Shown: piece by piece, positions 57,006-64,000 of the stretch
Position numbering within the stretch: position 1 is the first letter of the stretch
Layout of the letters: each line of letters opens with the position of its first letter
Assembly: GCF_003323745.1 (NCBI RefSeq)
Contig: NZ_QOIL01000015.1
Coordinates: forward strand, 1 to 64,000
Source: Sphaerisporangium album
GTDB taxonomy: Bacteria; Actinomycetota; Actinomycetes; Streptosporangiales; Streptosporangiaceae
Direction of reading: 5' to 3'
DNA: 64,000 nucleotides
Notes under the pieces: model-generated
What the model was told of the DNA's origin: nothing
Databases searched by the model: none
What the model saw: the letters and a program-made list of their open reading frames with translations, nothing else
Program-made: the position numbers and the translations under genes

Positions 57006-58268
57006 TCACCCCATGCGGGACCGGACGCGGCCCAGGGCGTCGCGTCCGTGGTAGACCGCCGACGCCACCCCGCCGAGCTGCGGGACGTCCTGCGCCGTGT
57101 TGAGCGCCTGCTTGGCCGCCTCGTAGGCGTCCAGCGCGCGGCGCCAGTCCTGGTCGACGCTGCCCGTGGTCATGTGGTTGACCTTGTAGTCGAAGTCCAG
57201 CGCGTCGATCTCCTCGCCGAGCCTGATCACGTCCTCCTCGGCCGTGCGGCGCGCGGCGGCGAACCGGGCGGCCCGCTCGACCCGGCGCCGGTACGACAGC
57301 CCCCAGAGGATCAGCGTGACGCTCAGCCCGAGCCCGCTGAGGAGCACCAGGACGAGCCCGAGCCCGCCACGCCCGCCGGTCGTGCCCGGGAGCACCCCGC
57401 CGCCGACGTCCGTGCCGGTGTCCGTGCCAGTGTCCGTGCCGGTGCCGGTGCCCGGCAGGTCCGAGGTGCTGCCGACCGCGTCGTCCGGGACGTCCTTCGG
57501 CTCGCCGAGCGCGCCGGTGAGGTTGACTTCGTCGGCCTGGACGAAGGAGGCGCCCTGCACCGTCGCGCCGTGCAGGTCGGCGCCGCGCAGCTCGGCCTGG
57601 GTGAACTCGGCCTCGGTGAGGTTGGCGCCCTTGAACACCGCGAACTGCAGCTTCGCCTGCCCGAGCTTCACCTCGCGCATCTTGGCGCGGGTGAAGTCCG
57701 CGTTCCTGCCCTCGACCTGGCCGAGCGTCGCCTCGTTGAGGTCGGCGTCGACCAGCGTCGCGTCCGTCAGGTCGGCCTGGGTGAGCTCGGCCCGCGCCAT
57801 GATCGCGCCGGTGAGGTCCGCGTGCGGGAACTCGGCCTGACCTCCCTGGGCGTCGGTGAGGACGGCATCGCGCAGGACGGCGTGCTTGGCGTGCATCTGC
57901 CCGAGATCGGCCTTGGACAGGTCCGCGCCGGTCAGGTCGGCGTACTCCAGCTTCGCCTGGGTGAAGTCCGCCTCCTTCATCGACGCGTTGTGCAGCAGCG
58001 CGCCGCTGAGGTCCTTCTGGGTGAAGTCGACCTCGTCGAGCTTGGCATTGGTGAGGTCGGCGCAGCGCAGATCGTCCGGGAGCGCGGCGCCGCCGGTGAA
58101 GTCCTCGCCGCGGAGCTTCGGTCCGGAGCCGGGCTTGCAGGGCGCGGAGGCCGTGAGGGCCACCGAGGCGGACGACGGCCCTGCCGCCGACGCGGGCCCG
58201 GCGGGCCCGGTGAGCACCAGGAGCCCGGCAAGGCCGGATACCAGGGCAAGGGGGATTGAACGACGCAA
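57006..58268 (-). CDS. Exported pentapeptide-repeat membrane protein
   Basis: 420 residues. Signal peptide (RRSIPLALVSGLAGLLVLTGPAGPASA), then A(D/N)LxxA-type pentapeptide repeats over about residues 50-250, forming a right-handed quadrilateral helix; a Thr/Gly/Asp linker (GTGTDTGTDTGTDV); one membrane helix (GLGLVLVLLSGLGLSVTLILWGL); and a cytoplasmic tail of about 100 residues (RTAEEDVIRLGEEIDALDFD, DWRRALDAYEAAKQALNTAQ). That tail is paralogous to the one in the next gene upstream. Start is TTG 58268: GAGGAGG is 6 bases before it. Role unknown; topology suggests signalling across the membrane or scaffolding. Confidence 0.82.
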   Translation of the reverse strand: MRRSIPLALVSGLAGLLVLTGPAGPASAAGPSSASVALTASAPCKPGSGPKLRGEDFTGGAALPDDLRCADLTNAKLDEVDFTQKDLSGALLHNASMKEADFTQAKLEYADLTGADLSKADLGQMHAKHAVLRDAVLTDAQGGQAEFPHADLTGAIMARAELTQADLTDATLVDADLNEATLGQVEGRNADFTRAKMREVKLGQAKLQFAVFKGANLTEAEFTQAELRGADLHGATVQGASFVQADEVNLTGALGEPKDVPDDAVGSTSDLPGTGTGTDTGTDTGTDVGGGVLPGTTGGRGGLGLVLVLLSGLGLSVTLILWGLSYRRRVERAARFAAARRTAEEDVIRLGEEIDALDFDYKVNHMTTGSVDQDWRRALDAYEAAKQALNTAQDVPQLGGVASAVYHGRDALGRVRSRMG

Positions 58269-58426
58269 CGCAGGCCTCCTCGACAACTGCGCCGAGTCTC
58301 GCAGGTGATCATATACGCGGGGTTGCACGATCCTTGCAGATCGCTTTCGCCCCCCGCCGCTCCCGCCGGGCCACCGTGGCGCGCCCGCCCGTCCAGGGAA
58401 CCGCTGAGCGGCCCTGTGAGCGCGAA

Positions 58427-58459
58427 GGAGCCCCGGCGGGACGATGCCGCCGGGGCTCC
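58427..58459 (-). terminator. Terminator after the TPM-like gene
   Basis: ggagccccggcgg / ccgccggggctcc, a perfect 13-bp stem with 7-base loop, between the TPM-like gene (58541 end) and the start of the pentapeptide gene, so the two are transcribed separately. Confidence 0.8.
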
Positions 58460-58540
58460 GTGAACGTGCGTGCTGAGAGCGCTCAGCGCCGTCGGGTCAT
58501 GCGCCGGCCGGTCCGGGCCGGGACGGTGACCCGGGGACCG

Positions 58541-59941
58541 TTACCAGTCGCCACCGCCGCCGCCGAAGTCGCCGCCACCGAAGTCGCCGCCACCCCAGTC
58601 TCCTCCGCCGCCGCCCCAGTCGCCGCCGCCGCCGAAGTCGCCGCCTCCGGCGTCGGCGCCCTGGGCGTAGCCCGCGTCGTACCCGGCCCCGTAACCGCCG
58701 CCGCCCCAGCCGAAGCCGCCGAACGAGCTGCCGAGGACGGTGCCGATGAGCATGCCGGTCATCAGGTCGCCGCCGAAGCCGCCGTAGTAGCCGGAGGCGT
58801 AGGGCGCGTAGGCCGGGCCGGCGTCATAGTACGGACGGCGCTGGCCGTCGATCATGACCTCGCGGGTCATCGGGTCGAAGCCCTGCTCGACGCGCCGCGC
58901 GTCGTCGGCGCAGGCGGGCACGTCGCGCGGCGCGCCACCGGGCGGGGCCCAGCGGACGTCGCGGACGGACGGGCCGTGCTGCGGGTTGAAGAAGCACGGC
59001 GCGCGCCGCTCGGGGAGCGGCTGGCCGGCCACCCGCGCCTTGACGCAGGCCAGGGCGTAACGCCCCTCTTCGAGGATGCCGGTCACGCCGCGCAGGTCGT
59101 CCGCGCGCTTGACGGCGGCGAGCTCCGTCTTCGCCCGCTCGTAGGAGTCGAGGGCCTGACGCCAGTCGTCCTGGTCGGAGGCACCGGCACCCGCCACCTT
59201 GACGTCCAGGTCCAGCTCGGTGATCTCCTCGCCGAACTTGGTGACGTCCTCCTCGACGGTCTGCTTGACGGCGGCCAGCTCGCGCGCCTCGCGGGCCTCG
59301 CGGTCGCGCCGCTTCTTGCGGGAGATCAGGAAGATGCCCAGGCCGCCGACGGCGGCGATCACCAGGATGCCGATCAGGATTCCCGCGCCACCGCCGCCGC
59401 CCGCGGAGGTGCCCGACTTCAGGGCGCCGCGGGTGTCACCGCTGACGGCCTTGTCGACGCGGGCCACGAAGTCCTTCATGCCCGACACGACGTCCTTGTT
59501 GTTGGCGACGGCGGCCTCGGCGAGGTCGCCGGCCAGACCGGTCCTGCGGATCGCGGTGGAGCCGGCGAACAGGGAGTTGCCGTCCAGAAGCGCCACCGTG
59601 GCGCGGTTGCGGCCCTCCTGCGCGAGCGACTGGCCCAGGGCGGTGATCAACTGACCGGCGGCGGAACCGCTGGTCACCGTGCCGTCCGCGAGGGCGGCCA
59701 CGTAGATCTTGCTATCGGCGCCCTCCAGCGCGTCACGGATCTCTGAGAGCTGGTCCTTGCTCAGGGTGACGCCCGGGCCTACATATAGCGGGTCGCTGGA
59801 CTTCCAGACCGCCACGACCGCGTTCGGATCGGGCGGTGGGGCCGCGGCCTGCGCCGAGGGCGCCAGCGCGAGCAGCGTGAAAAGGCCGACCAGGGCGGCC
59901 ACGACTGTGGCCGCCGCGCGGCGCACCGAATGAGTGGTCAC
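58541..59941 (-). CDS. TPM-like exported membrane protein with Gly-rich tail
   Basis: 466 residues. Signal peptide; an ectodomain (about 35-185) with DPLYVGPGVTLSKDQLSEIRDAL, KIYVAALADGTV and GRNRATVALLDGNSLFAGS, TPM-like; membrane helix (AGILIGILVIAAVGGLGIFLI); cytoplasmic domain VEEDVTKFGEEITELDLDVKV, DDWRQALDSYERAKTEL; then a Cys-containing segment and a Gly/Tyr/Trp/Asp/Phe-rich tail (GGGDWGGG, GGGDFGGG). GTG 59941 has GAAGGAGG nine bases upstream. The cytoplasmic domain is paralogous to that of the neighbouring pentapeptide protein. Related TPM proteins act in envelope quality control in other bacteria; function here is unknown. Confidence 0.8.
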   Translation of the reverse strand: MTTHSVRRAAATVVAALVGLFTLLALAPSAQAAAPPPDPNAVVAVWKSSDPLYVGPGVTLSKDQLSEIRDALEGADSKIYVAALADGTVTSGSAAGQLITALGQSLAQEGRNRATVALLDGNSLFAGSTAIRRTGLAGDLAEAAVANNKDVVSGMKDFVARVDKAVSGDTRGALKSGTSAGGGGGAGILIGILVIAAVGGLGIFLISRKKRRDREAREARELAAVKQTVEEDVTKFGEEITELDLDVKVAGAGASDQDDWRQALDSYERAKTELAAVKRADDLRGVTGILEEGRYALACVKARVAGQPLPERRAPCFFNPQHGPSVRDVRWAPPGGAPRDVPACADDARRVEQGFDPMTREVMIDGQRRPYYDAGPAYAPYASGYYGGFGGDLMTGMLIGTVLGSSFGGFGWGGGGYGAGYDAGYAQGADAGGGDFGGGGDWGGGGGDWGGGDFGGGDFGGGGGDW

Positions 59942-61741: not shown

Positions 61742-61997
61742 CGAGGTCGTCCCTTTCCGTTTCCTCCCAAGGGGTCTGATCCTCCCAAGGGCCTTGCGCG
61801 CCTTCCACGGAGTGTAAGCGGCCTCTGATCTCACGAGAGCCCCCCTACCCCCGCCCCTGGATATGAGGCCTCAGGGGCCTATGCGGGGGTCAAACCCGAT
61901 AACCAGTCGATATAAGCAGTGCATCATAGGGGTTGGACGTCTAAGGTAGGGGCGTTTGGCTACCCCCTGTGTGCATACGATCCCCAAGGAGACCGGC
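61742..61997. other. Divergent promoter region, accA3 / WXG100
   Basis: 256 bp without a gene, AT-richer near 61890-61930. tgaggcctca at 61865-61874 is a small palindrome. Promoters for both divergent units should lie here; I cannot assign -10 or -35 elements with confidence. Confidence 0.4.
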
Positions 61998-62270
61998 ATG
62001 AGCCAGAGCTTGCTCGGCGGCGACCCCGCGGAAATGCAGAACATGGCCGCTCAGTTCACGCAGCAGGCCGAGCAGGTGCGTCAGACGATGGCGGCGCTCG
62101 ACCGCGAGGCGGCGAAGGTCGGCACGGCGTGGACGGGCCCGGGAGCGGTGCGGTTCGGCGGCGCCTGGCAGAACTACCGCCAGGCGTTCCAGCGGATGTC
62201 GGAGGAGCTCGCCGAGGCGTCCCGCCTGATCAACACCTACCGCGGCAACATCGAGTCCGCGACGCGATAG
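61998..62270 (+). CDS. WXG100 family type VII secretion substrate
   Basis: 90 residues, two helices with the central turn AWTGPGAVRF (W-x-G) at about residue 43: AEMQNMAAQFTQQAEQVRQTMAALDREAAKVGTAW then FQRMSEELAEASRLINTYRGNIE. ESAT-6/CFP-10-like proteins are exported as helical hairpin dimers by the Esx/T7SS machinery. Only one WXG100 gene is seen here. ATG with AAGGAG upstream. An FtsK/SpoIIIE-type gene is on the opposite strand 560 bp away. Confidence 0.9.
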   Translation: MSQSLLGGDPAEMQNMAAQFTQQAEQVRQTMAALDREAAKVGTAWTGPGAVRFGGAWQNYRQAFQRMSEELAEASRLINTYRGNIESATR

Positions 62271-62831: not shown

Positions 62832-64000
62832 TTACGTGGCCAGAGCGGCCTGCATGGGCGTGGCCGCGCCCGAGACGACCAGCAGGCCGCGTCCCGGAGG
62901 CCCGCCCACCGCGCCGCGCGGCAGCCGCACGTTGAACAGGTCGCCGTCCGCCGGGCTCTGCACCGACAGCAGCAGCCCGGTGCGCGACTTGCGCGCCTCG
63001 GCCACGAACCCCCGGTACGCCGTCGCCAGGTCGCCGGTCGTGCCCGCGATCAGCAGCCCGTGCTCGCCGTCCCGCCCGCTGCGCAGCGTGGCCTCCAGCG
63101 CCATCCCGAGCGGCGAGTCGGGGGAGACGAGCTCGGCGTCGTCCACCAGCACGACGTACCGGTCATGCCCCGCCAGCGCGCCGGGCAGGTCGTCCCCCTC
63201 GCCGGTCAGAACGCCGAGCACGCCGTCCTGGCCGGACAGCTCGCGCAGCGGGCTGCGGCGCGGGGCCACCACGGCGACCGGCGTGTCCTGGCCGAGCAGC
63301 CAGCGCGCGGCCGTCAGCAGCGCCGACGACCGTCCGGACCTGGACGGGCCCGCGACCACCGCCGCAGGGCCCTGCGCGCCCAGGTCGACGCCGAGCGGGG
63401 CCAGCGAGTCCCCGCCCGCCCCGAGCAGCGCCCACAGCGGCGAGGGCGGCTTGAAGCCCGGGACCAGGTCCAGGGCCTGGGCGGAGGTGATGCGCATCGG
63501 CAGCGCGTCCACGCGCAACAGCGACGCGGGCGCGGGGTGCCGCTCGGCGGACGCGCGGGCGAGCGCCTGCAGGACCGCGACCTGAGCCGGGCCCGCCGGG
63601 TCCTCGTCCAGCAGCGCGATCTGGTTCTCGACGAGCCCCTGTTCCCCCATGGACAGCGCGCGGCCGGGCGGCATGACGGACGGCAGGCTGCGCGGAGGCA
63701 GTCCCGCCAGCCCGTAGTCGGCGGGATCGGCCAGCCGCATGATCAGCCGGTCGTCGAACAGCGTGGAGATCTGGCCGAGCAGCCCGGACCTGTCCGCGGT
63801 GACCACGGCCCGCAGCCCCACGGCGGGGCCCTCGCGCAGCAACTGCATCAGCGCGTCCAGCAGCCGGCCGTAGTCGTAGCCCTCGAAGGCGGCGGCGAAG
63901 CCCTCCCAGCGGTCCAGCATGAGCACGAGCCACGGCATCCGCAGCGCCTCGTCGCCGTGCCCTCCGGTCTGCCCGGCCGCCTGCCTGGCCTCGGCCAGGG
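62832..64000 (-). CDS. FtsK/SpoIIIE-type ATPase, C-terminal part (gene continues beyond the window)
   Basis: About 390 residues, 5' end cut off by the window. The visible part includes RAVVTADRSGLLGQISTLFDDRLIMRLADPADYGLAGLP, typical of EccC-type third domains, then an ATPase core with degenerate Walker A AGPSRSGRSSALL (Arg for Lys) and Walker B RYVVLVDDAELVSPDSP. The open frame continues without a stop to the end of the window. This is the architecture of type VII or conjugation-like FtsK/SpoIIIE ATPases, and it lies beside a WXG100 gene. Confidence 0.85.
   Translation of the reverse strand, partial: LAEARQAAGQTGGHGDEALRMPWLVLMLDRWEGFAAAFEGYDYGRLLDALMQLLREGPAVGLRAVVTADRSGLLGQISTLFDDRLIMRLADPADYGLAGLPPRSLPSVMPPGRALSMGEQGLVENQIALLDEDPAGPAQVAVLQALARASAERHPAPASLLRVDALPMRITSAQALDLVPGFKPPSPLWALLGAGGDSLAPLGVDLGAQGPAAVVAGPSRSGRSSALLTAARWLLGQDTPVAVVAPRRSPLRELSGQDGVLGVLTGEGDDLPGALAGHDRYVVLVDDAELVSPDSPLGMALEATLRSGRDGEHGLLIAGTTGDLATAYRGFVAEARKSRTGLLLSVQSPADGDLFNVRLPRGAVGGPPGRGLLVVSGAATPMQAALAT

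Follow-up and report, generated by a model that had tools for sequence, protein, structure and literature searches.

Two adjacent membrane proteins of Sphaerisporangium album carry a common cytoplasmic module on unrelated ectodomains

The stretch of DNA analysed here (the window) comprises 64,000 nucleotides of the S. album genome. Two neighbouring genes on its minus strand, termed B and A, encode membrane proteins with the following parts:

58541-59941 (-): gene B, 466 amino acids, GTG start; ectodomain of predicted TPM fold, membrane helix, module, Cys/His domain and Gly-rich tail
59852-59941 (-): predicted signal peptide of B, residues 1-30; AxA site and hydrophobic segment, helix 6-25 in the model
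59417-59845 (-): ectodomain of B, residues 33-175, TPM fold by structure comparison; pLDDT mostly >90
59312-59374 (-): predicted membrane helix of B, approximately residues 190-210, running into the first module helix; hydropathy peak, helix 188-250 in the model
59003-59281 (-): module copy in B, residues 221-313, from the alignment with A and a shuffle test
58826-59002 (-): Cys/His domain of B, C-x3-P-x-H-x21-C-x2-D, zinc-ribbon-like by pattern; C316, H322 and C344 invariant
58544-58825 (-): tail of B, a hydrophobic GxxxGxxxG stretch followed by low-complexity Gly/Asp/Phe/Trp sequence; predicted to be disordered, pLDDT <50 from residue 384
57006-58328 (-): gene A, 440-codon frame; pentapeptide-repeat ectodomain, membrane helix and module
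57462-58139 (-): pentapeptide-repeat solenoid of A; PF00805 E 3.5e-39, pLDDT >93
57294-57362 (-): predicted membrane helix of A; hydropathy, helix 319-380 in the model
57012-57266 (-): module copy in A, forming its C-terminal end

The start codon of A is uncertain and may be GTG 58328 or TTG 58286. In a consensus scan, no promoter or terminator turned up in the gap separating B from A, but the sigma-70 consensus is a poor test here. The best-matching proteins of B are from Sphaerisporangium, with approximately 75% identity. From the signal peptides, the cysteines C60 and C85 of A, and the basic residues past the membrane helix, we infer that both proteins have their ectodomain outside and the module in the cytoplasm. 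The two cysteines cap the A solenoid and are invariant in an alignment of 21 orthologs.

A and B carry one homologous cytoplasmic module on unrelated ectodomains. BLASTP aligns 39 identical residues out of 85 (46%, E 2e-15), and this is the only significant segment between the two proteins. The module score of 161 lies 26 standard deviations above that of shuffled sequences (n=2000; mean 27.2, s.d. 5.1, maximum 60), and the best score of any other open reading frame in the window is 50, about one third of the module score; the shuffles and the other reading frames thus rule out chance composition as the source of the similarity. The ectodomains are no more similar to each other than to shuffles (z -0.8), and the membrane and juxtamembrane stretch shows weak similarity (z 4.3 against shuffles). 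No other significant copy of the module was found in the 9.3 Mb genome. The original prediction of adjacent genes with a shared cytoplasmic segment and differing ectodomains agrees with the coordinates, the BLASTP alignment and the shuffles, and the similarity survives a proper alignment.

In the predicted models (mean pLDDT of 83 for A and 77.7 for B), the module consists of a helix of approximately 60 residues that includes the membrane span, followed by two shorter helices (approximately 20 and 25 residues). The identical layout originally proposed for the two proteins holds up to the module but not beyond it, where B has approximately 150 more residues, the Cys/His domain and the Gly-rich tail, that A lacks. 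The conserved module motifs are EEDVxxxGEEIxxLD, WxxALDAYExAK and GRxAL. Both genes are under purifying selection within the genus, with a dN/dS for the module of approximately 0.3 in A and 0.4 in B.

No known domain was matched by the module in Pfam, NCBIfam, PHROGs or PADLOC, and a PDB sequence search returned nothing below E 0.05; the lack of a model for it in both Pfam and NCBIfam bears out its description as an unnamed domain. The module resembles solved helical bundles with Z values up to 9.5, which is unspecific and within the chance range for such bundles. The module occurs in 41 of 60 relatives, 64 of 80 genomes of the family and 118 of 297 genomes of the class sample. It extends to other classes of the phylum, with 32 positive genomes among the 396 of a phylum sample mostly drawn from outside the class. 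These sequence comparisons support the view that the module is a real, widespread and still unnamed actinobacterial domain.

The usual setting of the module is that seen in B: signal peptide, TPM-fold ectodomain, membrane helix, module, Cys/His domain and Gly/Asp/aromatic tail. The original suggestion that the module gathers extracellular scaffolds is so far unsupported. The pattern C-x3-P-x-H-x21-C-x2-(D/C) lies just past the module in 153 of 204 distinct module proteins, with the spacing of 21 kept in 144 of the 153, and Gly/Asp/aromatic repeats are found at the end of 130 of them. Judging from this pattern, the Cys/His domain of B probably binds zinc. The remaining 51 module proteins are mostly of the A type, and the others are truncated, shortened or more divergent. 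Some module proteins have no ectodomain (L066, L073, L084 and Kribbella loci), and others are soluble, Cys-domain-bearing forms without a membrane helix (L065 and L067). Pentapeptide ectodomains on the module were seen in one family only. A second A-type subfamily, with pentapeptides and a terminal module, is located away from B (L069, L070, L225 and L227); its members at L225 and L227 have about 40 repeat matches ahead of the module, more than A. At L178 (3058-4173), a membrane helix and module are joined to another C-terminal region, with no Cys/His domain directly after the module. Elsewhere in the class, overlapping neighbours in another family encode two differing module proteins of approximately 370-400 and 490 amino acids (L058, L059, L060, L061, L062 and L076), and similar neighbouring pairs are present at L065, L082 and L180.

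The B ectodomain was compared with known structures. The top five Foldseek matches are all TPM structures (best E 0.014), and VIA-align gave Z values of 12.7 to BA41 (5anp), 12.0 to both AtTLP18.3 (3ptj) and Psb32, 11.4 to a Rhodothermus TPM domain (7tbr), 10.1 to cg2496 (2kpt) and 8.3 to BA42. The alignments to 5anp, 3ptj, 7tbr and 2kpt span 110-137 residues with r.m.s. deviations of 2.7-3.5. The B ectodomain also aligned with a subunit of the cytochrome bcc-aa3 supercomplex of mycobacteria (6adq_J, 8hcr_J, 6hwh_O), at Z values of 8.1-8.6 that are suggestive only. The Pfam model PF04536 does not match B at E values up to 10, nor any other protein of the genome, and hhalign of B against a TPM sequence profile gave a weak match (probability 50%, 47 columns, single-comparison E 1.7e-4). 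Given this weak sequence evidence, we assign a fold: the model supports a TPM fold for the B ectodomain, and common descent with TPM domains is likely, not proven. The TPM-like label of the original prediction is thus upheld by structure comparison and not by Pfam.

B resembles the TPM proteins (PF04536: AtTLP18.3, Psb32, cg2496 and BA41/BA42) in the predicted fold of its ectodomain, in having an exported domain and one membrane helix, and in its Gly-rich C-terminal tail. It differs from them in lacking a PF04536 match and in its cytoplasmic part, composed of a 93-residue module and a Cys/His domain. Actinobacterial TPM proteins have a long cytoplasmic helical region, but the B module is not similar to it, and neither HMM searches nor hhalign indicated homology. 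Like B, the Rv1476 family (PF20381) comprises membrane proteins with one predicted membrane helix (PMC10888442). Three of 28 B relatives match this family weakly (best E 4.6e-4), whereas B itself does not, and the best match elsewhere in its own genome has an E value of 0.6.

A is a pentapeptide repeat protein. It has a run of A(D/N)LXX repeats and a predicted four-sided beta solenoid, as expected of the pentapeptide repeat family (PF00805; HetL, MfpA/Qnr), and Foldseek matches the solenoid to known pentapeptide solenoids with E values of approximately 1e-9. Unlike HetL and MfpA/Qnr, A is predicted to be exported, anchored in the membrane and extended into the cytoplasm by the module. Its scores are far below the NCBIfam cut-offs for MfpA (55.6 bits vs 360), Qnr (51.3 vs 240) and HetL. 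In the literature, for which our coverage of subscription journals is thin, we found no report of the module or of a pairing with exchanged ectodomain, and nothing on pentapeptide proteins in Streptosporangiaceae.

The module tree, gene order and co-occurrence give good support for A being an old duplicate of B that arose next to B and had its ectodomain replaced by another fold, in line with the tandem duplication and ectodomain exchange suggested at the outset. In trees built from approximately 93 columns, which give moderate support for the placement of A, the A-type proteins are all united in a single clade (SH-aLRT 96-97). This clade lies beside the B proteins of Streptosporangiaceae (85-92), and together they form one group (85). 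The gene order biotin carboxylase (acc)-B-A-lpd-like is found in Sphaerisporangium, Planotetraspora, Acrocarpospora, Herbidospora, Sinosporangium and others. The order biotin carboxylase (acc)-B-lpd-like is that of outgroups, among them Actinoallomurus (L142) and L149. In Microbispora oryzae, some Streptosporangium and others, 1-2 kb separate B and A. The distance is 22-33 kb in three genomes (G025, G095 and G190; loci L038, L071 and L091), in which A still adjoins lpd. The suggested check of co-occurrence showed that A is never present without B in the 80 family genomes. Several relatives have B without A within the flank (e.g. Nonomuraea loci), and in many genomes B is alone; B therefore has no need of an adjoining A. 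In relatives lacking A (L222, L228-L232), a second module paralog often adjoins B, which from its sequence resemblance to B is TPM-fold-like. Bailinhaonella (L133) has a short form without pentapeptides at the position of A.

We propose the following account. B is the conserved member, an actinobacterial single-pass membrane protein with a TPM fold outside and the three-helix module, Cys/His domain and disordered tail inside. A originated early in the history of Streptosporangiaceae as a duplicate adjoining B; it kept the membrane segment and the module, lost the Cys/His domain and tail, and has a pentapeptide solenoid where B has its TPM domain. The sequences, the tree, the gene order and the predicted structures support these steps. 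Chaperone-like roles in the assembly of membrane-linked complexes have been proposed for TPM proteins (PMC11237479). By analogy with Psb32/TLP18.3, B may help to assemble or maintain a membrane protein complex, with the module, Cys/His domain and disordered tail serving as its anchoring platform in the cytoplasm. The module would be a membrane-coupled association unit through which A joins the assembly of B, and the A solenoid would offer a further binding surface outside the cell, alongside the TPM domain. Taken as a whole, this account has in our view an even chance of being correct. A bolder version is possible, if doubtful: the module could be a dedicated pairing domain of an actinobacterial membrane assembly, such that the outer half of the partner is exchangeable and the inner module keeps the partner in the complex. 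This idea is based on the neighbouring pairs of B with the pentapeptide protein A, of B with the second TPM-fold paralog, and of unrelated module proteins in other families.

It seems rather unlikely that the module is a mere membrane-proximal stalk or stop-transfer support, passively kept with the duplicated membrane helix, and that A and B have unconnected jobs. Such a role would fit the continuity of the module helix with the membrane helix in both models, the many genomes in which B is alone, and the unspecific nature of the helical-bundle matches; against it, the module of A is conserved within the genus like the folded ectodomain (identity 0.76 vs 0.73), specific motifs are kept, and the module also occurs without any membrane helix. 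This last feature, together with the elaborate cytoplasmic side of B and the biotin carboxylase gene kept next to B in several families, could instead mean that the module docks a soluble protein of the cytoplasm common to A and B, which would then not contact each other. We consider this unlikely, as there is no universal co-occurring candidate and the flanks of Streptomyces loci have no biotin carboxylase-like gene. Highly improbable is an enzymatic role of B with A as its structural accessory: PF04536 is named TPM_phosphatase and the B ectodomain appears to have the TPM fold, but B has no PF04536 match, and authors working on TPM proteins hold phosphatase activity to be unlikely or prefer a role in assembly (PMC12419801, PMC11237479).

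The module is defined here as an unnamed domain found in much of Actinomycetota. Structure prediction places the ectodomain of B in the TPM fold although no Pfam model detects it, and the gene pair is a clear example of an ectodomain replaced next to a partner that was retained. If the module does pair proteins, exchanging or removing it offers a direct way to learn what TPM-type proteins assemble in these bacteria. Elsewhere in the window, a small WXG100-like protein (61956-62270, +) and an FtsK/EccC-like ATPase fragment (62832-63938, -), both judged by eye, suggest a type VII secretion locus near A and B.
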